From Cordylochernes scorpioides (taxonomy: Eukaryota > Arthropoda > Arachnida > Pseudoscorpiones > Chernetidae), in NCBI GenBank assembly GCA_030710605.1, contig CP092870.1, positions 92,102,924 to 92,166,923 of the forward strand: 64,000 nt of DNA, read 5' to 3'. A model generated the notes under the pieces. That model worked only from the letters and a program-made list of their open reading frames with translations, searched no databases and was not told the origin of the DNA. Position 1 is the stretch's first letter, and each line of letters begins with the position of its first letter. Shown here in pieces: positions 6,428 to 59,514 of this stretch. Both the position numbers and the translations under genes were made by a program.

Positions 6428-6927
6428 CTAGACGAATGACCCGGGCAACGCCCGGGTTTACCCGATTAAATGTTTTATTCAAACACTATTCGTTACAATT
6501 ATAAATTGGCGCCGTGGATGTCACTCTTGTGAAACGTCCCGCTCCAAACTTTACAGTCAGATTAGTTACGATATAAATCTTCAAATCGAGCGAGCGTCTA
6601 TAAATATTTCGATTTAGATCAAGTATTCTAATTAGTAAGCGAACTATTTTAAACGTATTTATAACCTTGATAGAGGGCGCTGTTCGTGAGCTAAGTAGAA
6701 TAATTAGAATATATAGTTTTAATATTTAATTTATATATAATTTAAAATAACCTATCGTTGTCCTAGGTAGCCTAGTGGTCATGGCATCTGCCCGGTAAGC
6801 GGAATGTCGTGGGTTCGATTCCCATCCCTTGACACTTTTTTTATTTTATCCATTCTGACCAAATTCTATCCGTGAACTTCACACAGTGAACTTCACACAG
6901 ACAGAATAAGGCAATTATATAAGTAGA
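6428..6927 (-). mobile_element. Helitron-like non-autonomous element with tRNA-like insert
   Basis: Read on the minus strand it begins TCTACTTATATAATTGCC and ends in a GC hairpin (CCCGGGC, GTT, GCCCGGG) about 10 nt before a terminal CTAG followed by T. Those are the structural hallmarks of Helitron 3' ends. No Rep/helicase coding is present. It shares both ends and the tRNA-like core with the shorter copy at 24151-24388 and shares its middle (AGAGGGCGCTGTTCGTGAGC) with 23.7 kb. Confidence 0.7.
6760..6834 (+). pseudogene. tRNA-like sequence inside Helitron-like element
   Basis: It retains a good A box (TAGCCTAGTGG) and B box (GGTTCGATTCC) and is followed by a T run. The acceptor stem is mismatched compared with the better copy at 47523-47597. 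The anticodon loop CCGGTAA lacks the usual U33, so this is unlikely to be a functional tRNA. Confidence 0.7.
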
Positions 6928-11266: not shown

Positions 11267-12882
11267 TGTTCTTTTCTATCTTGAGTTCTTCTCTTTATTT
11301 CTTCATATCTTCCCATCCAGTTCAACGGTCGAATTCTTATAGCACTATGTTCTTTAAGAAGGTACTGTTCTTGAGTGACGTCATACTTCTCTATCATGAG
11401 TTCTTCTCTTTATTTCTTCATAACTTCCCATCCAGTCCATCAGTCCAATTACTCTATCTCTGTTCTTGAGTGACGCCATACTCCTCTATCATGAGTTTTT
11501 CTCTTTATTTCTTCATAACTTCCTATCCAGTCCATCAGTCCAATTACTCTATCTCTGTTCTTGAGTGACGCCATACTTCTTTATCTTGAGTTCTTCTCTT
11601 TATTTCTTCATAACTTCCTATCCAGTCCATCAGTCCAATTACTCTATCTCTGTTCTTGAGTGACGCCATACTTCTCTATCATGAGTTCTTCTCTTTATTT
11701 CTTCATAACTTCCTATCCAGTCCATCAGTCCAATTACTCTATCTCTGTTCTTGAGTGACGCCATACTCCTCTATCATGAGTTCTTCTCTTTATTTCTTCA
11801 TAACTTTCTATCCAGTCCATCAGTCCAATTACTCCATCTCTGTTCTTGAGTGACGCCATACTTCTCTATCTTGAGTTCTTCTCTTTATTTCTTCATAACT
11901 TCCTATCCAGTCCATCAGTCCAATTACTCTATCTCTGTTCTTGAGTGACGCCATACTTCTCTATCATGAGTTATTCTCTTTATTTCTTCATAACTTCCTA
12001 TCCAGTCCATCAGTCCAATTACTCTATCTCTGTTCTTGAGTGACGCCATACTCCTCTATCATGAGTTTTTCTCTTTATTTCTTCATAACTTCCTATCCAG
12101 TCCATCAGTCCAATTACTCTATCTCTGTTCTTGAGTGACGCCATACTTCTTTATCTTGAGTTCTTCTCTTTATTTCTTCATAAATTCCTATCCAGTCCAT
12201 CAGTACAATTACTCTATCTCTGTTCTTGAGTGACGCCATACTTCTTTATCTTGAGTTCTTCTCTTTATTTCTTCATAAATTCCTATCCAGTCCATCAGTC
12301 CAATTACTCTATCTCTGTTCTTGAGTGACGCCATACTCCTCTATCATGAGTTCTTCTCTTTATTTCTTCATAAATTCCTATCCAGTCCATCAGTCCAATT
12401 ACTCTATCTCTGTTCTTGAGTGACGCCATACTTCTCTATCATGAGTTCTTCTCTTTATTTCTTCATAACTTCCCATCCAGTCCATCAGTCCAATTACTCT
12501 ATCTCTGTTCTTGAGTGACGCCATACTCCTCTATCATGAGTTCTTCTCTTTATTTCTTCATAACTTCCCATCCAGTCCATCAGTCCAATTACTCTATCTC
12601 TGTTCTTGAGTGACGCCATACTTCTCTATCATGAGTTCTTCTCTTTATTTCTTCATAACTTCCTATCCAGTCCATCAGTCCAATTACTCTATCTCTGTTC
12701 TTGAGTGACGCCATACTTCTCTACCATGAGTTCTTCTCTTTATTTCTTCATAACTTCCTATCCAGTCCATCAGTCCAATTACTCTATCTCTGTTCTTGAG
12801 TGACGCCATACTTCTCTATCATGAGTTCTTCTCTTTATTTCTTCATAACTTTCTATCCAGTCCATCAGTCCAATTATTCCTA
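11267..12882. repeat. 95-bp minisatellite, about 17 units
   Basis: The unit contains TGTTCTTGAGTGACGCCATA and recurs at exactly 95-bp spacing from 11366 to 12791. A diverged first unit starts at 11267 and the last unit degenerates near 12880. Units differ by a few substitutions only, for example CTCCTC/CTTCTC and ATCATGAG/ATCTTGAG. Non-coding. Confidence 0.95.
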
Positions 12883-19139: not shown

Positions 19140-19460
19140 AGCAATCCATAAGTAAATTAAGAAAAAGGCATCTCCTTATCGTGCAAACTGAAAGTTGCTG
19201 ATGGCTTGCGCCATCTATCGGAATAAATATCAACTATTCTCGTTGATTTTTAATTATTCCAGAATTGGCCAAATATCCATTCTTGATTAATCAAGAAAAG
19301 CTTACAACGGACGCGTTTCGGGCTGTTGGCCCTCATCAGCGTGGTGCAAGCTTTACCTCAATTTTATTGTATTAATTTATGCACCTTATCCCAGTACAAT
19401 ATCACTTTTTTTTTTTTGTACTATTTTTTCCCATAAGTAAATATTTAATTAAAAAGGCAT
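19140..19460 (-). mobile_element. family A repeat carrying a hammerhead ribozyme
   Basis: Minus-strand order: hammerhead (19351-19301), CTTTTCTTGATTAATCAAGA, TGGCCAATTCTGG, ATAGATGGCGCAAGCCATCA, GCACGATAAGGAGATGCC, and a terminal GGATTGCTCTATTTA. The string CATAAGTAAAT leading into AAAAAGGCAT occurs near 19150-19172 and again at 19431-19460, about 283 bp apart, so the copy is slightly longer than one unit. No protein is encoded. Confidence 0.7.
19301..19351 (-). ncRNA. hammerhead ribozyme, family A (type I layout)
   Basis: Minus-strand elements in order: stem I 5' strand AAGCTTGCACCACG, core CTGATGA (19339-19333), 13-nt stem-loop II GGGC CAACA GCCC (19332-19320), GAAA (19319-19316), self-complementary ACGCGT (19316-19311), residue 17 = C, and stem I 3' strand CGTTGTAAG. 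All invariant core positions of the hammerhead family are present. Stem I pairs at ACG/CGT and again at AAGCTT/AAGCTT around an internal loop. Stem III can only be long if two molecules pair, as in minimal hammerheads. Activity is inferred, not shown. Confidence 0.8.
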
Positions 19461-19740: not shown

Positions 19741-20303
19741 ATATCCAATGTTTAAAATTGGGTTAAATAGAGTGCAAGACTTTTTATATCGAATTTGGTG
19801 AAAATCTTTGGTAAAATGAGTATGCTATCTCTCTCCAAGTTTCAATTTCAAGTTCTTTCTGTAGGCAGGAAAAACGTAGGATTTTTATATTTGGATAAAT
19901 TTTGTTAATATTCAGTAGAGAGAGAGAGCATAGCGCCCTCCCCTAAACACATGGTTAAACCTGTTTTTTCCTGGAGGTATTTATTTATTTATTTCAATTC
20001 AAAACGCTATGTCCCCCTAGGGATACTTGTGCTAAATGTACATACAAATATAACAAAGAAAATATTCAACATAGAAAGATACGCAGAAAGTTACTTAGAA
20101 AGATTCATAAATATTATTTACATATATAGAGATATTCTTTGAATTTTATTTACAGTTACATCATTATATTTAAAATATATACATATATACACACATATAT
20201 ATACGCATACACCTATATATTGTTTACAACCATATAATATGTCCCATATTTCCTTGAGATCGTTACATCAAAGACCATTTTCTTGGAGGTGTAGTCTATA
20301 AAA

Positions 20304-22856
20304 GTCGGTGGATGAGAGGGTAACACGCTCGATTCCCGACAATAAGTCGGTGGATGAGAGGGTAACACGCTCGATTCCCGACAATAAGTCGGTGGATGAG
20401 AGGGTAACGCGCTCGATTCCCGACCATAAGTCGGTGGATGAGAGGGTAACACGCTCGATTCCCGACAATAAGTCGGTGGATGAGAGGGTAACACGCTCGA
20501 TTCCCGACAATAAGTCGGTGGATGAGAGGGTAACACGCTCGATTCCCGACAATAAGTCGGTGGATGAGAGGGTAACACGCTCGATTCCCGACAATAAGTC
20601 GGTGGATGAGAGGGTAACACGCTCGATTCACGACAATAAGTCGGTGGATGAGAGGGTAACACGCTCGATTCCCGACAATAGGTCGGTGGATGAGAGGGTA
20701 ACACGCTCGATTCCCGACAATAAGTCGGTGGATGAGAGGGTAACACGCTCGATTCCCGACAATAGGTCGGTGGATGAGAGGGTAACACGCTCGATTCCCG
20801 ACAATAGGTCGGTGGATGAGAGGGTAACACGCTCGATTCCCGACAATAAGTCGGTGGATGAGAGGGTAACACGCTCGATTCCCGACAATAAGTCGGTGGA
20901 TGAGAGGGTAACACGCTCGATTCCCGACAATAAGTCGGTGGATGAGAGGGCAACACGCTCGATTCCCGACAATAAGTCGGTGGATGAGAGGGTAACACGC
21001 TCGATTCCAGACAATAAGTCGGTGGATGAGAGGGTAACACGCTCGATTCCCGACAATAAGTCGGTGGATGAGAGGGTAACACGCTCGATTCCCGACAATA
21101 AGTCGGTGGATGAGAGGGTAACACGCTCGATTCACGACAATAAGTCGGTGGATGAGAGGGTAACACGCTCGATTCCCGACAATAAGTCGGTGGATGAGAG
21201 GGTAACACGCTCGATTCCCGACAATAAGTCGGTGGATGAGAGGGTAACACGCTCGATTCCCGACTATAAGTCGGTGGATGAGAGGGTAACACGCTCGATT
21301 CCCGACAATAAGTCGGTGGATGAGAGGGTAACACGCTCGATTCCCGACAATAAGTCGGTGGATGAGAGGGCAACACGCTCGATTCACGACAATAAGTCGG
21401 TGGATGAGAGGGTAACACGCTCGATTCACGACAATAAGTCGGTGGATGAGAGGGTAACACGCTCGATTCCCGACAATAAGTCGGTGGATGAGAGGGTAAC
21501 ACGCTCGATTCCCGACAATAGGTCGGTGGATGAGAGGGTAACACGCTCGATTCACGACAATAAGTCGGTGGATGAGAGGGTAACACGCTCGATTCCCGAC
21601 AATAAGTCGGTGGATGAGAGGGTAACACGGTCGATTCCCGACAATAAGTCGGTGGATGAGAGGGTAACACGCTCGATTCCCGACAATAAGTCGGTGGATG
21701 AGAGGGCAACACGCTCGATTCCCGACAATAAGTCGGTGGATGAGAGGGTAACACGCTCGATTCCCGACAATAAGTCGGTGGATGAGAGGGTAACACGCTC
21801 GATTCCCGACAATAAGTCGGTGGATGAGAGGGTAACACGCTCGATTCCCGACAATAAGTCGGTGGATGAGAGGGTAACACGCTCGATTCCCGACAATAAG
21901 TCGGTGGATGAGAGGGTAACACGCTCGATTCCCGACTATAAGTCGGTGGATGAGAGGGTAACACGCTCGATTCCCGACAATAAGTCGGTGGATGAGAGGG
22001 TAACACGCTCGATTCCCGACAATAAGTCGGTGGATGAGAGGGCAACACGCTCGATTCCAGACAATAAGTCGGTGGATGAGAGGGCAACACGCTCGATTCC
22101 AGACAATAAGTCGGTGGATGAGAGGGTAACACGCTCGATTCCCGACAATAAGTCGGTGGATGAGAGGGTAACACGCTCGATTCCCGACAATAAGTCGGTG
22201 GATGAGAGGGTATAACACGCTCGATTCCCGACAATAGGTCGGTGGATGAGAGGGTATAACACGCTCGATTCCCGACAATAAGTCGGTGGATGAGAGGGTA
22301 TAACACGCTCGATTCCCGACAATAAGTCGGTGGATGAGAGGGTATAACACGCTCGATTCCCGACAATAAGTCGGTGGATGAAAGGGTATAACACGCTCGA
22401 TTCCCGACAATAAGTCGGTGGATGAGAGGGTAACACGCTCGATTCCCGACAATAAGTCGGTGGATGAGAGGGTAACACGCTCGATTCCCGACAATAAGTC
22501 GGTGGATGAGAGGGTAACACGCTCGATTCCCGACAATAGGTCGGTGGATGAGAGGGTAACACGCTCGATTCCCGACAATAGGTCGGTGGATGAGAGGGTA
22601 ACACGCTCGATTCCCGACAATAGGTCGGTGGATGAGAGGGTAACACGCTCGATTCCCGACAATAAGTCGGTGGATGAGAGGGTAACACGCTCGATTCCCG
22701 ACAATAGGTCGGTGGATGAGAGGGTAACACGCTCGATTCCCGACAATAGGTCGGTGGATGAGAGGGTAACACGCTCGATTCCCGACAATAGGTCGGTGGA
22801 TGAGAGGGTAACACGCTCGATTCCCGACAATAAGTCGGTGGATGAGAGGGTAACAC
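20304..22856. repeat. 42-bp minisatellite, 60 full units plus a partial
   Basis: The unit starts GTCGGTGGATGAGAGGGTAA and ends CCCGACAATAA. The period is 42 bp, except for five consecutive 44-bp units with an extra TA at about 22211-22390. From the first GTCGG (20304) to the last (22834) is 2530 bp, which is 60x42 plus 5x2. Each unit has the 5-bp pair GTCGG/CCGAC, an A-box-like TGGATGAGAGGG and a B-box-like GCTCGATTCCC. Because 42 is divisible by 3 and the unit lacks stops in several frames, long open frames appear on both strands. They are repeat artefacts. Confidence 0.97.
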
Positions 22857-23110: not shown

Positions 23111-23277
23111 TACGGTACTGTATAGTCAGAACCATGTCTAAAATAGACTAAGTATGTAAATATGGTATTCTAAACTTATCATCAATCATTATAAATCTTT
23201 GCTTTGAGGGTTTTCCCCTCAACTTGAATAACCGGACAGAATTGATTTTAAATAGAAAGATGTAAAAAGAAAGAATA

Positions 23278-23520
23278 ATCACCTCTCCCGTCAAAATAGA
23301 TGCAGAAACTAGGTGCCATCTATCGACCGTCTCTACAAACTAGCGGACTCGGTTCGGTGACAAAATCGCAATACCATCTTTGAAAATTCCAAACTTCTAC
23401 TTGAAGATCATTGTTTCGAGATAATGGTTCTCCTCAAGCATCTAGAGCAGGCTTTGTTTGCTTTGGCAGTCAATATATTACACATAATTATGAGTCTATT
23501 TTGACGGTAGAGGTAAATTA
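23278..23520. repeat. family B repeat, decayed foldback
   Basis: It is bounded by CACCTCTCCCGTCAAAATAG on the left and the diverged complement near 23500 (ATTTTGACGGTAGAGGT). The ribozyme region is degenerate, with no CTGANGA/GAAA pair. Confidence 0.65.
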
Positions 23521-24150: not shown

Positions 24151-24388
24151 CTAGCCGAATGATCCGGGCAACGCCCGTGTTTTACCCGATTGAATGTTTT
24201 GATTCAAATACTATTTGTTACCATTATAAATTGTGGTCATGTGGCCTAGTGGTCATGGCATCTACCCGGTAAGCGGAAGGTCGTGGGTTCGATTCCCATC
24301 CCTTGACACTTTTTTTTATTTTATCCATTCTGTACAAAATCTATCCGTGAACTTCACACAGACAGAATAAGGCAATTATATAAGTAGA
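24151..24388 (-). mobile_element. short Helitron-like element with tRNA-like core
   Basis: It has the same ends as 6428-6927: terminal CTAG with the hairpin CCGGGCAACGCCCG, and TCTACTTATATAATTGCC at the other end. At 238 bp it is little more than the two ends plus the tRNA-like sequence. Confidence 0.7.
24236..24308 (+). pseudogene. tRNA-like sequence
   Basis: A box (TGGCCTAGTGG) and B box (GGTTCGATTCC) are present, followed by T8. The acceptor stem is poorly paired. The anticodon loop CCGGTAA matches the other copies. Confidence 0.65.
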
Positions 24389-24928: not shown

Positions 24929-25344
24929 CTTTCACAGGAATTCAAAAGATAACCAAGGATATATATCCCAGTGTCAAATTCTCTCTAGGCACCAGGTCTG
25001 CGATATTAATGTCAACTTTCCACATTTTCCAATTTCCCTGGAGATTCCATTAAAAAACTGACGGACTGATGCAAATATCTGGGCTGGAGAATTCCTTCCT
25101 TCGTCGTCTTCTGCTGGCATTTTTTTTTAAATACAAACATTTAGTAAAAGTCTTTTTTTTTGTTTGAATTAATATAATATTATATAAACCTTCATATATT
25201 TATATATTTTTCTTTATTATTTATATATTAATTTATTTTCTTACTTTTTTTCACACACATACGTAAGCACCCATTATATATATATATATATATATATGAA
25301 TCTAAAGTGACACCTCTCCTTTTTATTATGCATACTTTATATAT

Positions 25345-25590
25345 ATATAAAGATCACCTCTCCCGTCAAAATAGACGATAAAACTAAGCACCATCTGTTG
25401 ACCGTCGCTGCAAACTCAGGTTGGTGACAAATCCACAGCATCAGCTTTGACAAACTGAGAAGCGCTCACCTGGTGACTATGGATTCGAACTATTGTTGTT
25501 TTGTCACCGACCCGAGTCCTCTAATCTGTGGAGACGGACAATAGATGGCACTTATATTTTTAGAGTTTATTCTGACGGTAGATGCGACTA
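25345..25590. repeat. family B foldback without full ribozyme
   Basis: The left end CACCTCTCCCGTCAAAATAG and a diverged inverted right end (TTCTGACGGTAGATG) surround CAGCATCAGCTTTGACAAAC and TTTTGTCACCGACCCGAG. Only the 3' part of the hammerhead (stem III and stem I side) is left in a mutated form near 25465-25490. Confidence 0.65.
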
Positions 25591-25814
25591 GATCAATCTT
25601 CTCCCGGCAATATTTCTATATATATATATATAAATGCGCTCAGATTGGTTGTGCACTGTCACGTGAACTTAATCAGCCTATCAGCTTCAAGTTCAATATC
25701 CAATCAACGTGCCGTATTTCATTAGTTTAAATAATATTGAACATTGAAATTCCATATTGAAATGTGATTAAGAGTTCAATTCTAAAAACTTCTTTTTGTG
25801 TGTGCCATCAAAAG

Positions 25815-26156
25815 GGGAGAGGCGCCCATTGCTTCTATGGATTAATTTCCTCCCGGCAAATTTTCCATCTATATTCTAGCCATAGATTTGGCCCAGCCAC
25901 ATTGCCAGCAAAACACCTCTTTGGTAGATTGTGAAGATTCCATTAGATCCCGTGTGGATCTCATGGAATAAAGTCCGCCCTAGACTGACGAGGGCCATTA
26001 GCCCGAAACCATGGTCTCTAGGTGGACGCTTCTCAGTTTGCCAAAGCTGGTGTTGTGGCTTTGTCACCGACCCGAGGCCGCTAGTTGCGGCGACGGTCAA
26101 TGGATGGCGTCAGTTTTTGACGTTTATTTTGACGGGAGAGGCGCCCATTGCTTCTA
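25815..26156 (+). mobile_element. family B repeat carrying a hammerhead, 319-bp period
   Basis: It begins and ends with GGAGAGGCGCCCATTGCTTC at 319-bp spacing, so one full unit plus about 23 bp is present. The order within is CCTCCCGGCAAATTTTCC, GATCCCGTGTGGATC, the hammerhead, GTTGTGGCTTTGTCACCGAC and ATGGCGTCAG. No open reading frame of note is present. The overlap at both ends is expected for a copy made from a circular or multimeric RNA. The same organisation is seen on the other strand at 51918-52266. Confidence 0.75.
25973..26027 (+). ncRNA. hammerhead ribozyme, family B (type I layout)
   Basis: Elements in order: stem I 5' strand GTCCGCCCTAGA (25973-25984), core CTGACGA (25985-25991), stem-loop II GGGC CATTA GCCC (25992-26004), GAAA (26005-26008), self-complementary ACCATGGT (26008-26015), C17 at 26016, stem I 3' strand TCTAGGTGGAC (26017-26027). 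CTAGA pairs with TCTAG, and GTCC with GGAC across an internal loop. Every core residue expected of the family is present. Cleavage is predicted after 26016. Confidence 0.85.
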
Positions 26157-26639
26157 TATATATATATATATGATACATTTTGAATGATGGAATGTAAATA
26201 TTTTTTGTTTTTACTGAAGATTTAACTAAATGGAGTATGTAAATTTTTGTTTTGTTTAAAAAGATTTGAAAAATAAAGAGATAATGATTGAGGTCGAGAC
26301 AGCCACAAACGACTGCTAATTCTTTTTCACACATCTAGAATAGAAATATATCATATATATATATTTTTTTTTATTTGTGTCATTCTATCTCGACTTTTAA
26401 TAACAATTTTATTTCAGAGTTATATATTATGCGTTATTTTGATGTTTCAAAGTATTATTCTCTGTATGAAAATGACACCCACCGCTTAATCTCCTTATAG
26501 TATATAAAGGTAAATTTTAGCGGCGTGAGAAGAGTTCGATAAAATTATAACATCGATTTGTAGGTTTGATTCTTCTTGCTAAGTTCCTGTCCCCGCGAGC
26601 TAATATACTCTAGTCCCTCTAAAGTAGTTTACAACTAAC

Positions 26640-26825: not shown

Positions 26826-28340
26826 ATTCAAGTAGTATTAAAAAGTAGACAAGTAGTATTAAAGAAAGAATTTGACAAGTAGTATTAAAAAGTAGACAAG
26901 TAGTATTAAAGAAAGAATTTGACAAGTAGTATTAAAAAGTAGACAAGTAGTATTAAAGAAAGAATTTGACAAGTAGTATTAAAAAGTAGACAAGTAGTAT
27001 TAAAGAAAGAATTTGACAAGTAGTATTAAAAAGTAGACAAGTAGTATTAAAGAAAGAATTTGACAAGTAGTATTAAAAAGTAGACAATTAGTATTAAAGA
27101 AAGAATTTGACAAGTAGTATTAAAAAGTAGACAAGTAGTATTAAAGAAAGAATTTGACAAGTAGTATTAAAAAGTAGACAAGTAGTATTAAAGAAAGAAT
27201 TTGACAAGTAGTATTAAAAAGTAGACAAGTAGTATTAAAGAAAGAATTTGACAAGTAGTATTAAAAAGTAGACAAGTAGTATTAAAGAAAGAATTTGACA
27301 AGTAGTATTAAAAAGTAGACAAGTAGTATTAAAGAAAGAACTTGACAAGTAGTATTAAAAAGTAGACAAGTAGTATTAAAGAAAGAATTTGACAAGTAGT
27401 ATTAAAAAGTAGACAAGTAGTATTAAAGAAAGAATTTGACAAGTAGTATTAAAAAGTAGACAAGTAGTATTAAAGAAAGAATTTGACAAGTAGTATTAAA
27501 AAGTAGACAAGTAGTATTAAAGAAAGAATTTGACAAGTAGTATTAAAAAGTAGACAAGTAGTATTAAAGAAAGAACTTGACAAGTAGTATTAAAAAGTAG
27601 ACAATTAGTATTAAAGAAAGAATTTGACAAGTAGTATTAAAAAGTAGACAAGTAGTATTAAAGAAATAATTTGACAAGTAGTATTAAAAAGTAGACAAGT
27701 AGTATTAAAGAAAGAATTTGACAAGTAGTATTTAAAAGTAGACAAGTAGTATTAATGAAAGAATTTGACAAGTAGTATTAAAAAGTAGACAAGTAGTATT
27801 AAAGAAAGAATTTGACAAGTAGTATAAAAGAAAGAGTTTGACAAGTAGTATTAAAGAAATAATTTGACAAGCAGTATTAAAAAGTAGACAAGTAGTATTA
27901 AAGAAAGAATTTGACAAGTAGTATTAAAAAGTAGACAAGTAGTATTAAAGAATTTGACAAGTAGTATTAAAAAGTAGACAAGTAGTATTAAAGAAAAATT
28001 TGACAAGTATTATTAAAAAGTAGACAAGTAGTATTAAAAAAAAATTTGACAAGTATTATTAAAAAGTAGACAAGTAGTATTAAAGAAAAATTTGACAAGT
28101 AGTATTAAAAAGTAGACAAGTATTATTAAAGAAAGAAGTAGACAAGAAGTATTGGCACAAGTAATCGACCAGAAGTGTAAAAACAAGCAGAATACAAGAA
28201 GTGTTCAAGAAGTATTAAAAAGTAGACAAGTAGTATTAAAGAAAGAATTTGACAAGAAGTATTGACACAAGCAGTAGACGAGAAATATTCACACAAGTAG
28301 ACGAGAAGTAGACTAGAAGCACACAAGTTGTAGACAAGAC
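26826..28340. repeat. 47-bp minisatellite, about 26 units
   Basis: The unit combines GACAAGTAGTATTAAAAAGT and AGACAAGTAGTATTAAAGAA with GAATTT, period 47 bp from about 26871. The array is very regular to about 27750, then shows indels and degenerates by 28340 into ACAAGAAGTATTGACACAAG-type sequence. Non-coding. Confidence 0.95.
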
Positions 28341-28624: not shown

Positions 28625-28885
28625 TTTCTCCCGTCAAATTAGGTGCAAATAAACGGGCCTCATCTTCTCTATATAAACATAGAATTATCCTGTTTATATA
28701 TTTTTATATGTAGAGGTACAGACTGCATCACGCTGACGAGGGTCAACAGCCCGAAAGGCGTTCGTGATTGACTTTTCTTGATTTATTAAGAAAATGAATT
28801 GCCCAAATATCATGGAACATGTTAAATCAACGTTTAGTCCATTAGACGGCCCTCGGGCATCTAAAAAGCTCATGTAGGCGGTCAG
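28625..28885 (+). mobile_element. family A/B mosaic repeat carrying a hammerhead
   Basis: It opens with a family B-like TTCTCCCGTCAAATTAGGTG and continues through the hammerhead at 28727-28768. It then runs into CTTTTCTTGATTTATTAAGA, AATTGCCCAAATATCATGG, and a tail like the palindrome arms at 10.4-10.7 kb. Confidence 0.65.
28727..28768 (+). ncRNA. hammerhead ribozyme, family A, third copy
   Basis: ATCACG (28727-28732) pairs perfectly with CGTGAT (28763-28768) as stem I. Core CTGACGA is at 28733-28739, stem-loop II GGGT CAACA GCCC at 28740-28752 (one G-U pair), GAAA at 28753-28756, AGGCGT at 28756-28761 and T17 at 28762. Stem III has lost the perfect self-complementarity of ACGCGT, so activity may be reduced. 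Confidence 0.75.
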
Positions 28886-28910: not shown

Positions 28911-29452
28911 ACCTATATATATATAAAGGTCAATGTCTGTCTGTCTGTTTCGCGATAAACTCAAAAACTACTGAACCAATTGGTACCAAATTTTGCATGT
29001 CGCTTTTTATAAACCTGAGGAAAATTTTCAGCTACATTTTGATTAGTATTTTTGGCTATTTCTTTTTTTCATTTGAAGAACTTTTTTTTTACGCGGAGTA
29101 ATCCGGAATGGAATGAATACCCAAATATGGCAATTTTTTATAAGCATCGGTGGTTCAGTGGTAGAATGCTCGCCTGCCACGCGGGCGGCCCGGGTTCGAT
29201 TCCCGGCCGATGCATTTTTTTTACAATTTTTAAAACTCATTATCAGTTATATCAACTATATTAATTAAATCAAATACCTAAACACTAATATAATACAATT
29301 TTTGCCATCACACACACTTTTTTCCTGTATTTTATGTGTTACTTCTGTATTGCTATTCTATGGCACTTCTAATATTTATTATTGATGTACTTTCAGTATG
29401 AAGGAAATTGCAATCGTGGGAATTCTCGGGCGAAGCCGGGTCATACGTCTAG
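28911..29452 (+). mobile_element. Helitron-like element containing a tRNA-Gly gene
   Basis: The 5' part has TCAATGTCTGTCTGTCTG followed by CGCGATAAACTCAAAAACTA, a pattern common at the start of these elements. The 3' end has a GC hairpin (CTCGGGCGAAGCCGGG) about 10 nt before the terminal CTAG, followed by T. There is no protein-coding content. Confidence 0.6.
29144..29214 (+). tRNA. tRNA-Gly (anticodon GCC)
   Basis: A 71-nt sequence folds into a complete cloverleaf. Acceptor GCATCGG pairs with CCGATGC plus discriminator A. The D arm holds the A box TGGTTCAGTGG. Anticodon stem CTCGC/GCGGG encloses CTGCCAC with anticodon GCC. The T arm CCGGG/CCCGG holds the B box GGTTCGATTCC. A T8 terminator follows directly. 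All expected positions are intact, so it is probably functional or very recently copied. It lies inside a Helitron-like element, which could be dispersing it. Confidence 0.95.
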
Positions 29453-33674: not shown

Positions 33675-33905
33675 ACTTTAATCAGGTAAATAAATTAAGA
33701 AAAAGGCATGTCTCCTGATCACGCAACTAAAAGTTGCTGATAACTTAGGCCATCTGTCGGAATAATTCTCAACTAATCGTTGATTTTTTGTATATTCCAG
33801 AATTGGCCAAATACCCATTCTTGATAAATCAAGAAAAGCTAACCACGTACGCGTTTCGGGCTGTTGGCCCTCGTCAGCGTGGTGCAAGCTGTACCTCAAC
33901 GACCA
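33675..33905 (-). mobile_element. family A repeat carrying a hammerhead
   Basis: Minus-strand order: hammerhead, AGCTTTTCTTGATTTATCAA, TATTTGGCCAATTCTGGAAT, GACAGATGGCC, CAGCAACTTTTAGTTGCGTG, AGACATGCCTTTTTC. It is about 230 bp long. A second tail lies inverted at 34060-34130, so the pair forms a loose foldback. Confidence 0.7.
33837..33890 (-). ncRNA. hammerhead ribozyme, family A, best copy
   Basis: On the minus strand ACCACG (33883-33878) pairs perfectly with CGTGGT (33847-33842) as stem I, with AGCT/AGCT pairing again beyond an internal loop. Core CTGACGA is at 33877-33871, stem-loop II GGGC CAACA GCCC at 33870-33858, GAAA at 33857-33854, self-complementary ACGCGT at 33854-33849 and A17 at 33848 (a GUA cleavage triplet). 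All core residues are canonical. Confidence 0.87.
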
Positions 33906-42315: not shown

Positions 42316-42499
42316 ATGTTAAAAAATCAATAAGCTTGAGGGATGAGTATCTTTAGTAAATAAATTTATTTCAAGCTTTCGGGCTCAACCGCCCTTCGAC
42401 AGGAAAATTTTCCTGTCGAAGGGCGGTTGAGCCCGAAAGCTTGAAATAAATTTATTTACTAAAGATACTCATCTCTCAAGCTTATTGATTTTTTAACAT
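42316..42499. repeat. 184-bp near-perfect palindrome (family F) in the gypsy leader
   Basis: Two 92-bp arms meet at AAAATTTT (centre 42407/42408), and I see one mismatch between them. Each arm contains CTGTCGAAGGGCGG and AGCCCGAAAGCTTG in opposite orientations. It lies between the primer-binding site and gag. Confidence 0.9.
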
Positions 42500-47276: not shown

Positions 47277-47775
47277 CGAAAATTGCAATTATACCGCAAA
47301 TGTTTCTTCTGAACGAAATATCGAAATTATTTTAAGGCGAAATAGCGATTGTTTCTAACCTTAGGATGAAGTATGATAATCGCTATTTCTCCTTAAAAAA
47401 TTTCCGATATTTCGTTCAGAAGAAACATTCGCGGTATAATTGCAATTTTCGTTCTACAATCATAAGCCGCATTATATTGTATTATAAATTACTTTATATA
47501 ATATTTACGAGCGGAAAAATATGTCCAGGGTAGCCTAGTGGACATGGCATCTGCCCGGTAAGCGGAACACTGTGGGTTCGATTCCCATCCCTGGACAATT
47601 TTATTTTTCCGTTTATCATTCATCCTTTCATACTTCATCCTTAAGGTTTAGAAATAATCGCTATTTCTCCTTTAAATAATTTCGATATTTCGTTCAAAAG
47701 AAACATTTGCGGTATAATTGCAATTTTCGTTCTATAATCATAAGCCGCATTATATTGTATTATAAATATATATCA
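47277..47775. repeat. family D foldback with a tRNA-like centre
   Basis: 47280-47400 and 47400-47490 are inverted family D copies (AAATAGCGATTGTTTCTAAC versus AATCGCTATTTCTCC). A tRNA-like sequence at 47523-47597 sits between CGGAAAAATA and ATTTTTCCG. A further family D copy follows at 47600-47770. It is related to 58905-59255, where the tRNA-like part has shrunk to TGTCCAGGGATTGG. Confidence 0.75.
47523..47597 (+). pseudogene. best-preserved tRNA-like sequence, 75 nt
   Basis: GTCCAGG pairs fully with CCTGGAC, followed by discriminator A. The D arm is GCC/GGC with A box TAGCCTAGTGG. Anticodon stem TCTGC/GCGGA encloses CCGGTAA (GGT in the anticodon position, nominally Thr, but C33 instead of U33). 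The T arm has B box GGTTCGATTCC. It could still be transcribed by Pol III, but the loop is non-canonical and no strong T run follows directly. Confidence 0.7.
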
Positions 47776-48572: not shown

Positions 48573-48889
48573 TTAATAATTGTAACACCTCTATGCTAAT
48601 ATTCAACTATTTAGAACATGCTAATTACCTTGAGAGAAGATATGAGTAATTAACTTCAAACTTCTCTTTATACAAATTCCTCTCTTTTTGCATATAATAC
48701 TTTTTTTTTAATTTATTTCAGAGAGTGTACCTGAAGAAGAACAGTAAAGTTTGAAAGCTTGTACGATTATATGCAAATATAATACAGATGTGATTTATTT
48801 TTCATGTAGTTTGAAGTTTTCAGACCCTTACGGCCTTAAATACTCATTCTTTGATATTTCAGAAAGTCTAAAAGATCAGCTTTTTTGGT

Positions 48890-49025
48890 CTTTGAGATAC
48901 ATCTTGTACCACGCTGATGAGGATCAACAGCCTGAAATGTTCATATGGTTAGCTTTTCTTGAATTATCAAGAAAGGGTGTTTGAACAATTCTGGAATAAT
49001 TGTAAATCAACAAATAGTTGATATT
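48890..49025 (+). repeat. family A repeat with decayed hammerhead
   Basis: It aligns with family A from GTACCACG onward and continues to AGCTTTTCTTGAATTATCAA. The ribozyme is described separately. Confidence 0.65.
48907..48955 (+). pseudogene. decayed hammerhead, family A
   Basis: CTGATGA (48914-48920) and GAAA (48934-48937) are kept with the same 13-nt spacing, but stem II is weakened (GGAT versus GCCT). ACGCGT has become ATGTTC, consistent with CpG decay. It is probably inactive. Confidence 0.65.
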
Positions 49026-51905: not shown

Positions 51906-51917
51906 TATATATATAAG

Positions 51918-52266
51918 CATAGGGCGCCTCTCCCGTCAAAACTAGACGCCATCTATTGAACTAGCGGCCTCGGGTCGGTGACAAAGCCACATCAGCTTTG
52001 GTAAATTGAGAAGCGTCCACCTAGAGACCATGGTTTCAAGCTAATGACCTTCGTCAGTCTAGGGCGGACTTTATTCCGTGAGATCCACACGGGATCTAAT
52101 GGAATCTTCACAATCTACCAAAGAGGTGTTTAGCTAGCAAAGTGGCTGAGAAAATCTATCACCAAAATATAAATAGAAATTTTGTCGAAAGGAAATTAAT
52201 CTATAAAAACATAGGACGCCTCTCCCGTCAAAATAAACGTCAAAACTAGACGCCATCTATTGACCA
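51918..52266 (-). mobile_element. family B repeat carrying a hammerhead, about 292-bp period
   Basis: Minus-strand counterpart of 25815-26156. CATAGG followed by CGCCTCTCCCGTCAAA occurs at 51918 and again at 52210, so one unit plus about 50 bp is present. The interior order is the same, including GATCTAATGGAATCTTCAC and CACATCAGCTTTGG. Confidence 0.75.
52015..52069 (-). ncRNA. hammerhead ribozyme, family B, second copy
   Basis: On the minus strand: stem I GTCCGCCCTAGA (52069-52058), core CTGACGA (52057-52051), stem-loop II AGGT CATTA GCTT (52050-52038, with G-U wobbles but still paired), GAAA (52037-52034), ACCATGGT (52034-52027), C17 (52026) and TCTAGGTGGAC (52025-52015). Stems I and III are identical to the 26-kb copy. 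Confidence 0.82.
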
Positions 52267-52294
52267 CCGCCGCAAAATAGATAAATTTCCTATA

Positions 52295-56336: not shown

Positions 56337-56752
56337 TAGACACTCGGTGAACTGGTTTACTAAGGCTACCAAGAAGCAAACCGGTCTGGAAACACTTGGT
56401 GAACGAGTTCACTAAGGCTTCCAAGAAACAAACCGGCCTGGAAACACTTGGTGAACTAGTTCACTAAGGCTACCAAGAAACAAACCGGCCTGGAAACACT
56501 TGGTGAACTGGTTCACTAAGGCTACCAAGAAACAAACCGGCCTGGAAACACTTGGTGAACTAGTTCACTAAGGCTTCCAAGAAACAAACCGGCCTGGAAA
56601 CACTTGGTGAACTAGTTCACTAAGGCTACCAAGAAACAAACCGGCCTGGAAACACTTGGTGAACTGGTTCACTAAGTCTACCAAGAAACAAACCGGCCTG
56701 AAAACACTTGGTGAACTGGTTTACTAAGGCTACCAAGAAACAAACCGGCCTG
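56337..56752. repeat. 52-bp tandem array, about 8 units
   Basis: The unit contains GAAACACTTGGTGAACTGG, ACTAAGGCTACCAAGAAACA and CCGGCCTG. It repeats at exactly 52 bp from 56389 to 56753. Confidence 0.95.
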
Positions 56753-58255
56753 GAAACACTTGGTGAACTGGTTTACTAAGACTACCAAGACATAAACCAC
56801 AGCACAGCCCGGGTAGTTGGCGATCTATGGATACACTCCAGGAGCCTGGGTTACCAATAAGTAACTACTGATACTATATTTTTACCGGCCTAGAGATACA
56901 TGGTGAACTGGTTTACTAAGACTACCAAGACATAAACCACAGCACAGCCCGGGTAGTTGGCGATCTATGGATACACTCCAGGAGCCTGGGTTACCAATAA
57001 GTAACTACTGATACTATATTTTTACCGGCCTAGAGATACATGGTGAACTGGTTTACTAAGACTACCAAGACATAAACCACAGTACAGCCCGGGTAGTTGG
57101 CGATCTATGGATACACTCCAGGAGCCTGGGTTACCAATAAGTAACTACTGATACTATATTTTTACCGGCCTAGAGATACATGGTGAACTGGTTTACTAAG
57201 ACTACCAAGACATAAACCACAGTACAGCCCGGGTAGTTGGCGATCTATGGATACACTCCAGGAGCCTGGGTTACCAATAAGTAACTACTGATACTATATT
57301 TTTACCGGCCTAGAGATACATGGTGAACTGGTTTACTAAGACTACCAAGACATAAACCACAGTACAGCCCGGGTAGTTGGCGATCTATGGATACACTCCA
57401 GGAGCCTGGGTTACCAATAAGTAACTACTGATACTATATTTTTACCGGCCTAGAGATACATGGTGAACTGGTTTACTAAGGCTACCAAGACCTAAACCAC
57501 AGTACAGCCCGGGTAGTTGGCGATCTATGGATACACTCCAGGAGCCTGGGTTACCAATAAGTAACTACTGATACTATATTTTTACCGGCCTAGAGATACA
57601 TGGTGAACTGGTTTACTAAGACTACCAAGACATAAACCACAGTACAGCCCGGGTAGTTGGCGATCTATGGATACACTCCAGGAGCCTGGGTTACCAATAA
57701 GTAACTACTGATACTATATTTTTACCGGCCTATAGACACATGGTGAACTGGTTTACTAAGGCTACCAAGACATAAACCACAGTACAGCCCGGGTAGTTGG
57801 CGATCTATGGATACACTCCAGGAGCCTGGGTTACCAATAAGTAACTACTGATACTATATTTTTACCGGCCTATAGACACATGGTGAACTGGTTTACTAAG
57901 GCTACCAAGACATAAACCACAGGACAGTCCAGGTAGTTGGCGATCTATGGATACACTCCAGGAGCCTGGGTTACCAATAAGTAACTACTGATACTATATT
58001 TTTACCGGCCTAGAGATACATGGTGAACTGGTTTACTAAGACTACCAAGACATAAACCACAGGACAGTCCAGGTAGTTGGCGATCTATGGATACACTCCA
58101 GGAGCCTGGGTTACCAATAAGTAACTACTGATACTATATTTTTACCGGCCTAGAGATACATGGTGAACTGGTTTACTAAGGCTACCAAGACATAAACCAC
58201 AGGACAGCCCGGGTAGTTGGCTATCTATGGATACACTCCAGGAGTTACCTAGGTT
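56751..58255. repeat. 140-bp tandem array, about 11 units
   Basis: The unit starts CCTAGAGATACATGGTGAAC and repeats at 140 bp (56751, 56891, and so on to 58151). It equals the 52-bp unit plus 88 bp containing CCCGGGTAGTTGGCGATCTA and GAGCCTGGGTTACCAATAAG. Units are nearly identical. The last one breaks down near 58240. Confidence 0.95.
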
Positions 58256-59255: not shown

Positions 59256-59411
59256 TATGTATTAAAATTGACACCTCTCCTTTTGAAATTCAATTGAAAG
59301 AATGTATTTTGGCTTATCCATCCACACATAGAGAACAAATCAAAATGGTGGTAATAAAGAATAAGTCACAATACCAGTATTGGCAAATTAAGACAAAAAG
59401 CCAACAACCAA

Positions 59412-59450
59412 TATACCATGGTATCAGGCTATGGCACTCATCAGTACAGG
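59412..59450 (-). pseudogene. decayed family B hammerhead
   Basis: The minus strand keeps CTGATGA (59444-59438) and ACCATGGT (59422-59415), but GAAA is GATA and stem II no longer pairs well. Probably inactive. Confidence 0.55.
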
Positions 59451-59514
59451 GACGGCTTTGATTTCATAACATTCTATGAGAGAAGTTATGAAATGGATCT
59501 AATGGGCTATAAAT

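Follow-up and report, generated by a model that had tools for sequence, protein, structure and literature searches.

A hammerhead-bearing dispersed repeat in the pseudoscorpion Cordylochernes scorpioides as a probable retrozyme with Penelope-like insertion anatomy

Hammerhead motifs at the locus

The window analyzed here is a stretch of 64,000 nucleotides from the pseudoscorpion Cordylochernes scorpioides (assembly GCA_030710605.1, contig CP092870.1, positions 92,102,924 to 92,166,923 of the forward strand). A dispersed repeat, termed family B, carries two copies of a hammerhead motif within it: copy 1 at 25973-26027 on the plus strand, with a predicted cut after 26016, and copy 2 at 52015-52069 on the minus strand, with a predicted cut between 52026 and 52025. 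The type I layout is confirmed by observation at both sites, where the core CUGANGA ... GAAA ... NUH is combined with an open stem I, and self-cleavage at GUC is the predicted activity of the motif. In copy 1, CTGACGA (25985-25991) is followed by a 13-nt stem-loop II, GAAA, the self-complementary stem III sequence ACCATGGT (26008-26015, plus strand), which would pair over 8 bp between the two molecules of the predicted dimer, and GUC, whose C17 is 26016; stem I consists of 4 bp, a GC/U internal loop and 6 bp (GTCC-GC-CCTAGA / TCTAGG-T-GGAC). Copy 1 has GGGC/GCCC as its stem II, whereas the stem II of copy 2, AGGT/GCTT, has one A-U, two G.U and one G-C pair. The two differ by four transitions, and the G10.1-C11.1 pair, which an excerpt of PMC2837043 calls conserved, is no longer present in copy 2. 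The copies are 93% alike over 160 bp, and are therefore homologous and not independent.

The original prediction had described this type I order (CTGACGA, 13-nt stem-loop II, GAAA, GUC, looped stem I), and the sequence reads so at both copies. Its placement of the motif in a dispersed repeat is likewise borne out: a local sample of 264 kb, composed of the window and 200 kb upstream, holds five such B copies, and the exact core pattern with ACCATGGTC has 16,026 matches across the 24 contigs (2.62 Gb) of the host genome, a figure that counts core-pattern matches, stem pairing having been examined for stem II of 100 listed ones. The reversed control pattern has no match. Stems I and II are paired at 6/6 and 4/4 positions in all five local copies, one of which has ACTATGGT.

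Four hammerheads of a different repeat family, termed A, also lie in the window, at 28717-28776 (plus strand), 48898-48957 (plus, decayed), 33834-33893 (minus, its 3' tail being repeated in inverted form on the 5' side) and 19296-19355 (minus). Family A has the order of parts seen in B with another stem I, and ACGCGT replaces ACCATGGT in six of the ten rows of its alignment (A1), which holds the four window copies and six from upstream. It is locally denser than B: model R1, a covariance model whose only input was ten family A copies, has 12 matches above 55 bits in the 264 kb, ten of them being its own rows.

Further CTGANGA...GAAA motifs, which by sequence resemble minimal Penelope-type hammerheads, are located in the window at 55919-55885 (minus) and 48731-48756 (plus), and upstream at L001:6631 (minus), L006:5859 (plus), and L007:7051 (minus) and 7146 (plus). 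Other features of the window include uniform tandem arrays at 20302-22856, 26829-28153, 56744-58244 and 11365-12876, with units of 42, 47, 140 and 95 bp; tRNA matches above the gathering score at 29144-29214, 47524-47596, 6761-6833 and 24236-24308, all on the plus strand, two alike among which may be SINE heads; and a near-perfect palindrome at 42316-42499, whose 92-nt arms are 99% complementary and have no spacer.

Unit structure and copies of family B

Three of the five local B copies contain self-repeats, at shifts of 319, 320 and 319; the fourth, with a deletion, has a shift of about 304, and in the fifth a masked run intervenes. The shifts of 319-320 therefore define the element as a unit of approximately 320 nt, and a typical genomic copy comprises about one unit, mostly 1.0-1.2. 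Unit coordinates are numbered from U1, the first base after the predicted cut. The element that holds copy 1 (25814-26157, plus strand) spans about 1.07 units, carries a 24-nt direct repeat at its two ends (25815-25838 and 26134-26157), and terminates in a short 3' end followed by (TA)n. The element that holds copy 2 (51911-52275, minus strand) is a partial tandem, in which a tail piece (52275-52199) precedes the head, and it also has a short 3' end followed by (TA)n. Directly 5' of the ribozyme in copy 1 lies a stable hairpin (25937-25969, plus strand), which could act as a stop for reverse transcriptase (RT); several copies start near its 3' side (U274-286). A 35-nt "tail" region (25837-25873, plus strand) includes a small hairpin (25837-25868) between two alternative 3' ends, which in copy 1 are a short one at about U142 (25838) and a long one at about U177 (25873), 35 nt apart.

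Three more B-derived stretches are found in the window: a head-to-head pair without an intact core (25338-25626), composed of a minus arm at about 25338-25495 with the short end and a plus arm at about 25493-25626 with the long end; a decayed copy with a broken ribozyme core (23262-23458, minus strand); and a decayed copy of a subfamily, B' (59363-59505, minus strand), with CCCTGTA... in stem I and GTA replacing GTC. Stem I of B' is CCTGTA/TACAGG where B has CCTAGA/TCTAGG.

The unit of copy 1 has a GC content of 0.50 and a longest purine run of 9 nt; a simple scan of the B unit found no tRNA-type promoter boxes, and no ORF of at least 150 aa overlaps either window copy. At 320 nt the unit is too short for an ORF with RT and GIY-YIG endonuclease, as in an autonomous Penelope-like element (PLE), and it lies, with its 16,026 cores, within the range of about 150-450 bp in many copies that characterizes retrozymes. 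Tandem arrangement takes the form of partial tandems; the 100 listed matches include one pair of cores on the same strand at a spacing of 319 bp, and no long tandem array was seen in the mapped or listed copies. Among 30 genome loci, L045 matches the unit of copy 1 at 99% identity. A broken B-type ribozyme repeat gave rise to a 118-bp satellite of about 58 units (L010:1257-8059, some 102-109 kb upstream of the window), which retains GAAACCATGGTA and has lost CTGANGA.

Insertion anatomy

Insertions were mapped in 32 places, namely 30 fetched loci, minus three that repeat another place, plus the five local copies; the fetched loci all have an intact core and lie in the initial part of a single contig. 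The 3' ends of B fall mainly at two sites that flank the small hairpin, about U142 (...CTTCTAT or ...TCTCTTTA) and about U177 (...TTTTCCATCTATA). Twenty junctions are head-to-head and one is tail-to-tail; 16 of the head-to-head junctions involve a copy with a core, and four are neighboring insertions in the same stretch. With end classes that were set after viewing the mapped ends (short, U110-158; long, U165-190), each of the 16 classifiable pairs has one short and one long outer end, and none has two alike. The four unclassifiable junctions comprise one with a right end at U1, two with ends outside the classes and one split by a masked run. Unpaired B pieces amount to 10 long, 9 short and 2 other, and the core copy has no second arm in half of the 32 places. 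Among the first 100 listed core matches, neighbors within 1 kb are arranged as '-+' in ten cases, '--' in one, '++' in one and '+-' in none. Family B thus displays the marks of Penelope insertion, with inverted copies placed head-to-head (20 versus 1) and a tail on one of the inverted ends (16/16).

Target site duplications (TSDs) of at least 8 bp were called by script in 5 of 31 cases, with element letters partly included, against 2.8% (pairs) and 0.3% (singles) for mismatched flanks; by eye, TSDs of about 12, 10 and 9 bp are present in L059, L056 and L039, respectively. The right joint carries (TA)4+ in 8 of 31 cases. Most mapped copies have one sense ribozyme each, so that a unit cannot be released from them by two cuts. 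Some B copies start near U274-286 and U30-32, positions where strong hairpins may have stopped RT at their base, in a pattern that the core-based choice of loci affects. The right arm of L064 is a single copy ending at U1, beside the predicted cut; this one case is close to what would be expected of the 3' end of a cleaved RNA.

Chance, homology and covariation

A scan for the core with stems II and I of 4 and 6 bp, respectively, returned four places in the window, two of family B, including both copies, and two of family A, and the identical scan gave no match in 100 simulated first-order Markov windows. In prokaryote contigs the core pattern had 17 matches, with both stems fully paired in none of the 17, and a search for the core pattern in viral contigs had no match. 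The window alone has just two copies, homologous to each other, as chance or an assembly artefact would allow; this reading is ruled out by the counts from the simulated windows, the genome with its control, and the prokaryote stems.

Model R1, although built from family A, matches both B copies, with E values of 3.8e-8 for copy 1 and 1.9e-5 for copy 2. At E<=0.01 it has 24 matches (23 distinct), with pairing of 83.1% versus 74.3% in shuffles. The covariation score over these 24 matches is reached by none of 500 shuffles, mainly through stem I, where two-sided changes occur across families at all six inner pairs; the 24-row alignment is fitted to the structure and its rows are related, ten of them being the model's own, and the covariation result therefore leans towards the claim. 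In the same alignment the number of further pair types is unremarkable (88 of 500 shuffles), and within family A alone covariation gives no signal, 279 of 500 shuffles pairing at least as well.

Stem II of family B behaves differently from what had been anticipated. The original prediction took the pairing of stem II despite its differences between the copies as support for an RNA structure, an argument that finds no support in the 100 listed genome copies, in which there is one two-sided compensatory change versus 0.75 by shuffling; the 40 one-sided changes keep the pair in 17 cases and break it in 23. The Rfam comparison that had been proposed also went against the prediction: hammerhead families had no match in the window at E<=1, nor in the 201-base stretch around either copy at E<=10. 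This null counts weakly because the same window scan at E<=1 also missed all four family A hammerheads.

Predicted folding as monomer, dimer and circle

As isolated 55-mers, both copies are predicted to prefer other folds, with a minimum free energy (MFE) of -22.2 versus -16.2 kcal/mol for the hammerhead in copy 1 (a gap of 6), and of -21.0 versus -9.9 kcal/mol in copy 2 (a gap of 11). A stable intramolecular stem III is lacking, as in a single molecule it amounts to just 2 bp closed by CAUG and is absent from the monomer MFE structure. The "complete" hammerhead of the original prediction thus holds for the layout and fails for one molecule; of its wider interpretation, the type I layout, the dispersed repeat and the Penelope connection stand, and the stem II argument and single-molecule completeness do not. 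The unit of about 320 nt, the insertion anatomy and family A are additions to that prediction. For two strands of copy 1, the predicted cofold is a double hammerhead whose stem III reaches 8 bp; its energy is -51.6 kcal/mol, versus twice -22.2. The cofold of a copy 2 dimer gives no clean double hammerhead. Since stem III has only 2 bp in the monomer and ACCAUGGU is a palindrome, these models suggest that a dimer is the likelier active form of the hammerhead. Dimeric action is reported for axolotl hammerheads in excerpts of PMC7229834; for Aedes hammerheads, excerpts of PMC3088659 propose dimeric action with a tested construct that did not cleave, and state that constructs from Aedes and Nematostella, possibly dimer-dependent, failed to cleave.

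Folded as a circle, the unit of copy 1 reaches -125.8 kcal/mol, versus -88.7 (sd 5.4) for 50 mononucleotide shuffles, with 69% of bases paired; a long composite hairpin carries the ribozyme stretch close to its tip, in the same non-hammerhead fold as the monomer.

Penelope-like elements and GIY-YIG genes

According to excerpts of PMC3846280, Penelope copies include partial tandems, adjacent inverted pLTRs and 8-10-bp TSDs, with an optional 31-bp tail on one inverted pLTR; head-to-head is the commonest inverted order, and is explained there by self-priming on an antisense template. Excerpts of PMC11167929 report that a PLE protein cuts and extends both target strands in vitro, that hammerhead cleavage of an Anolis PLE is dispensable for insertion in vitro, and that no RNA-seq reads of this element start or end at the hammerhead cut site. 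PLEs have been proposed as movers of retrozymes and called a strong candidate (PMC7229834, in excerpt).

Of 17,015 GIY-YIG candidates in this genome, 150 were scored and 146 of these match the family, and all 11 neighbor pairs within 8 kb among the 146 are arranged as '-+'. One such locus, L068 (7.5 kb, L068:1-7501), is a near-perfect palindrome whose main arms are 99.5% identical over 3 kb. Its ORF has a GIY-YIG domain at residues 34-114, N-terminal to a stretch read by eye as RT (YVDD); the ORF itself has no RT family match at 0.001 and no solved-structure match at 0.01, and its 15 relatives comprise 8 with RVT_1, 4 with GIY-YIG and 3 with both. The N-terminal GIY-YIG is reminiscent of the Naiad clade of PLEs. 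Neither B-like sequence nor a hammerhead by regular expression was found in the 7.5 kb of L068, whose 3' ends lie outside that stretch. At L068 3980-4019, a GGGCCGAAAC ... CTGAAGAGGCCC stretch resembles a hammerhead in permuted order.

Among ORFs of at least 90 aa across the 264 kb (those with more than five X left out), none has GIY-YIG by regular expression, and YxDD occurs in seven, which by eye are gypsy-like or other RTs and transposase-like ORFs. In 3-kb stretches of the 32 mapped places, the GIY-YIG expression matches none of 22 ORFs of at least 120 aa, one of which has YxDD. Family B is inserted in the manner of PLEs and GIY-YIG genes are plentiful; a PLE-like helper enzyme would be the candidate mover.

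Interpretation

Family B is probably a non-autonomous, animal-type retrozyme moved by Penelope-like machinery. The motif, the unit length, the core-match count and, in the sample, the rules of orientation and of ends are observed; transcription, dimer cleavage, RNA circularization and two-ended priming by a PLE protein would complete the process. Cleavage of B transcripts at GUC^U would most likely take place in a double hammerhead that two RNAs form by pairing through ACCAUGGU, and the unit RNA, linear or circular, would be used by a Penelope-like protein with RT and GIY-YIG endonuclease. This protein would cut both target strands and prime from each DNA end, at two fixed sites flanking the 35-nt hairpin, with one DNA end per site; the two cDNAs would meet head-to-head to give inverted pairs, and copies of 1.0-1.2 units would result from an event at one end alone or from read-through beyond a unit. 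A palindromic stem III with two jobs, completing the ribozyme and pairing two unit RNAs to provide one RNP with two templates, is an improbable refinement; if true, head-to-head insertions with short and long ends would be the mark of a ribozyme dimer at a double-strand break.

For the retrozyme reading speak the core and stems beyond chance, the 16,026 core matches with none for the control, the finding of B by a model from A, the covariation of stem I across families, the double-hammerhead cofold of copy 1, the shifts of 319-320, the head-to-head pairs with short and long ends, and the '-+' arrangement of core and GIY-YIG neighbors, together with the excerpted accounts of Penelope copies (PMC3846280), of two-strand extension by a PLE protein (PMC11167929) and of PLEs as proposed retrozyme movers (PMC7229834). 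Against it stand the other folds of the monomer, the unit circle and the copy 2 dimer, the Rfam null and the lack of stem II covariation; the insertion of the Anolis PLE without cleavage, the self-priming explanation of PMC3846280 and the non-cleaving Aedes and Nematostella constructs, all as given in the excerpts cited; the one sense ribozyme per copy, the TSDs in 5/31, the (TA)4+ in 8/31 and the GC of 0.50; and L068 without B, end classes set after viewing, and core-selected loci from one contig.

It is conceivable, though on balance unlikely, that the retroelement is as proposed and that its inverted pairs stem from self-priming on an antisense template, in which case the ribozyme may play no role in insertion. 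Palindromes at inverted junctions (PMC3846280, in excerpt) and the Anolis PLE's independence of hammerhead cleavage in vitro argue in this direction; self-priming would, however, offer no simple reason for short and long outer ends in 16/16 pairs, and the PLE protein's extension of both target strands in vitro also speaks against it (PMC11167929, in excerpt). Family B could also be the solo pLTR of an autonomous PLE that resides in this genome and shares its ribozyme, which is judged unlikely: the unit-to-unit joints of 319-320 nt have nothing between them, ORFs near the 32 places (0/22 with GIY-YIG, one YxDD) offer no such element, and L068 lacks B-like sequence in 7.5 kb, even though pLTRs of PLEs carry minimal type I hammerheads (PMC7761336, in excerpt), solo and inverted pLTRs are described (PMC3846280, in excerpt), and GIY-YIG is abundant here (146 of 150 scored).

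The unconstrained changes in stem II, the decayed cores of several local copies and the descent of the 118-bp satellite from a broken copy would suit a relic, in which the fold is inherited from a formerly active ribozyme element and the family is now dead; 16,026 exact cores, a locus (L045) at 99% identity to copy 1's unit and the presence of every core residue in copy 1 make such a relic distinctly unlikely. A cut-and-paste DNA transposon or MITE, with the arms as terminal inverted repeats and the hammerhead as passenger, is highly improbable, as the arms are unequal in length and inner start and have different end sites (16/16), and half of the 32 places have no second arm for the core copy; what it would account for are the mutually inverted outer ends of many copies and the TSDs in some.

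Relation to known systems

Hammerheads in animal repeats, retrozymes, and PLEs as their suggested movers are already known (PMC7229834, PMC7761336, both in excerpt). In the literature surveyed, largely abstracts and excerpts, no retrozyme with head-to-head, one-tailed insertions of Penelope type was found. PLEs were named in 2020 as a strong candidate for the enzyme that moves animal retrozymes (PMC7229834, in excerpt), and family B hints at the machinery moving ribozyme repeats in animals. This genome makes the identity of that enzyme directly testable, since it holds 16,026 cores of retrozyme type as well as abundant GIY-YIG matches, each neighboring its own kind head-to-head, and the short/long asymmetry bears on the priming of the two DNA ends.

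Family B resembles the metazoan non-LTR retrozymes described in excerpts of PMC7229834 in its type I hammerhead, a unit within 170-400 nt, many copies, tandem joints and a self-paired RNA, the latter in B being a predicted fold. It differs from them in that its copies are mostly of 1.0-1.2 units with one sense ribozyme, head-to-head pairs are frequent, there are two alternative ends, and GC is 0.50. The profile of metazoan non-LTR retrozymes also includes a low GC (<50%), the absence of LTR, PBS and PPT, TSDs that exceed 4 bp where they occur, and linear as well as circular unit RNA in tissue. With PLEs and pLTRs, as excerpted from PMC3846280 and PMC11167929, family B shares partial tandems, head-to-head copies, a one-sided tail and, in a minority of cases, TSDs of about 9-12 bp; its unit is too short for RT or endonuclease. 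Minimal PLE forms are said to lack a stem III in an excerpt of PMC7761336, whereas the B ribozyme possesses one, of 2 bp in the monomer and 8 bp in the predicted dimer.

A weak, palindromic helix III is shared with hammerheads of axolotl and newt satellites and of the Aedes repeat (PMC7229834, PMC3088659, in excerpt), HHR_Amex2 having a 2-bp helix III with a tetraloop and HHR_Amex1 a palindromic tetraloop (Cervera & de la Pena 2020, PMC7229834, in excerpt); sequence and host differ in B, and its dimer is only predicted. The pDo500 satellite of Dolichopoda cave crickets, as described in excerpts of PMC2837043, likewise places a hammerhead in an abundant repeat and poses the question of single versus double hammerhead, but pDo500 is a satellite and family B is dispersed.
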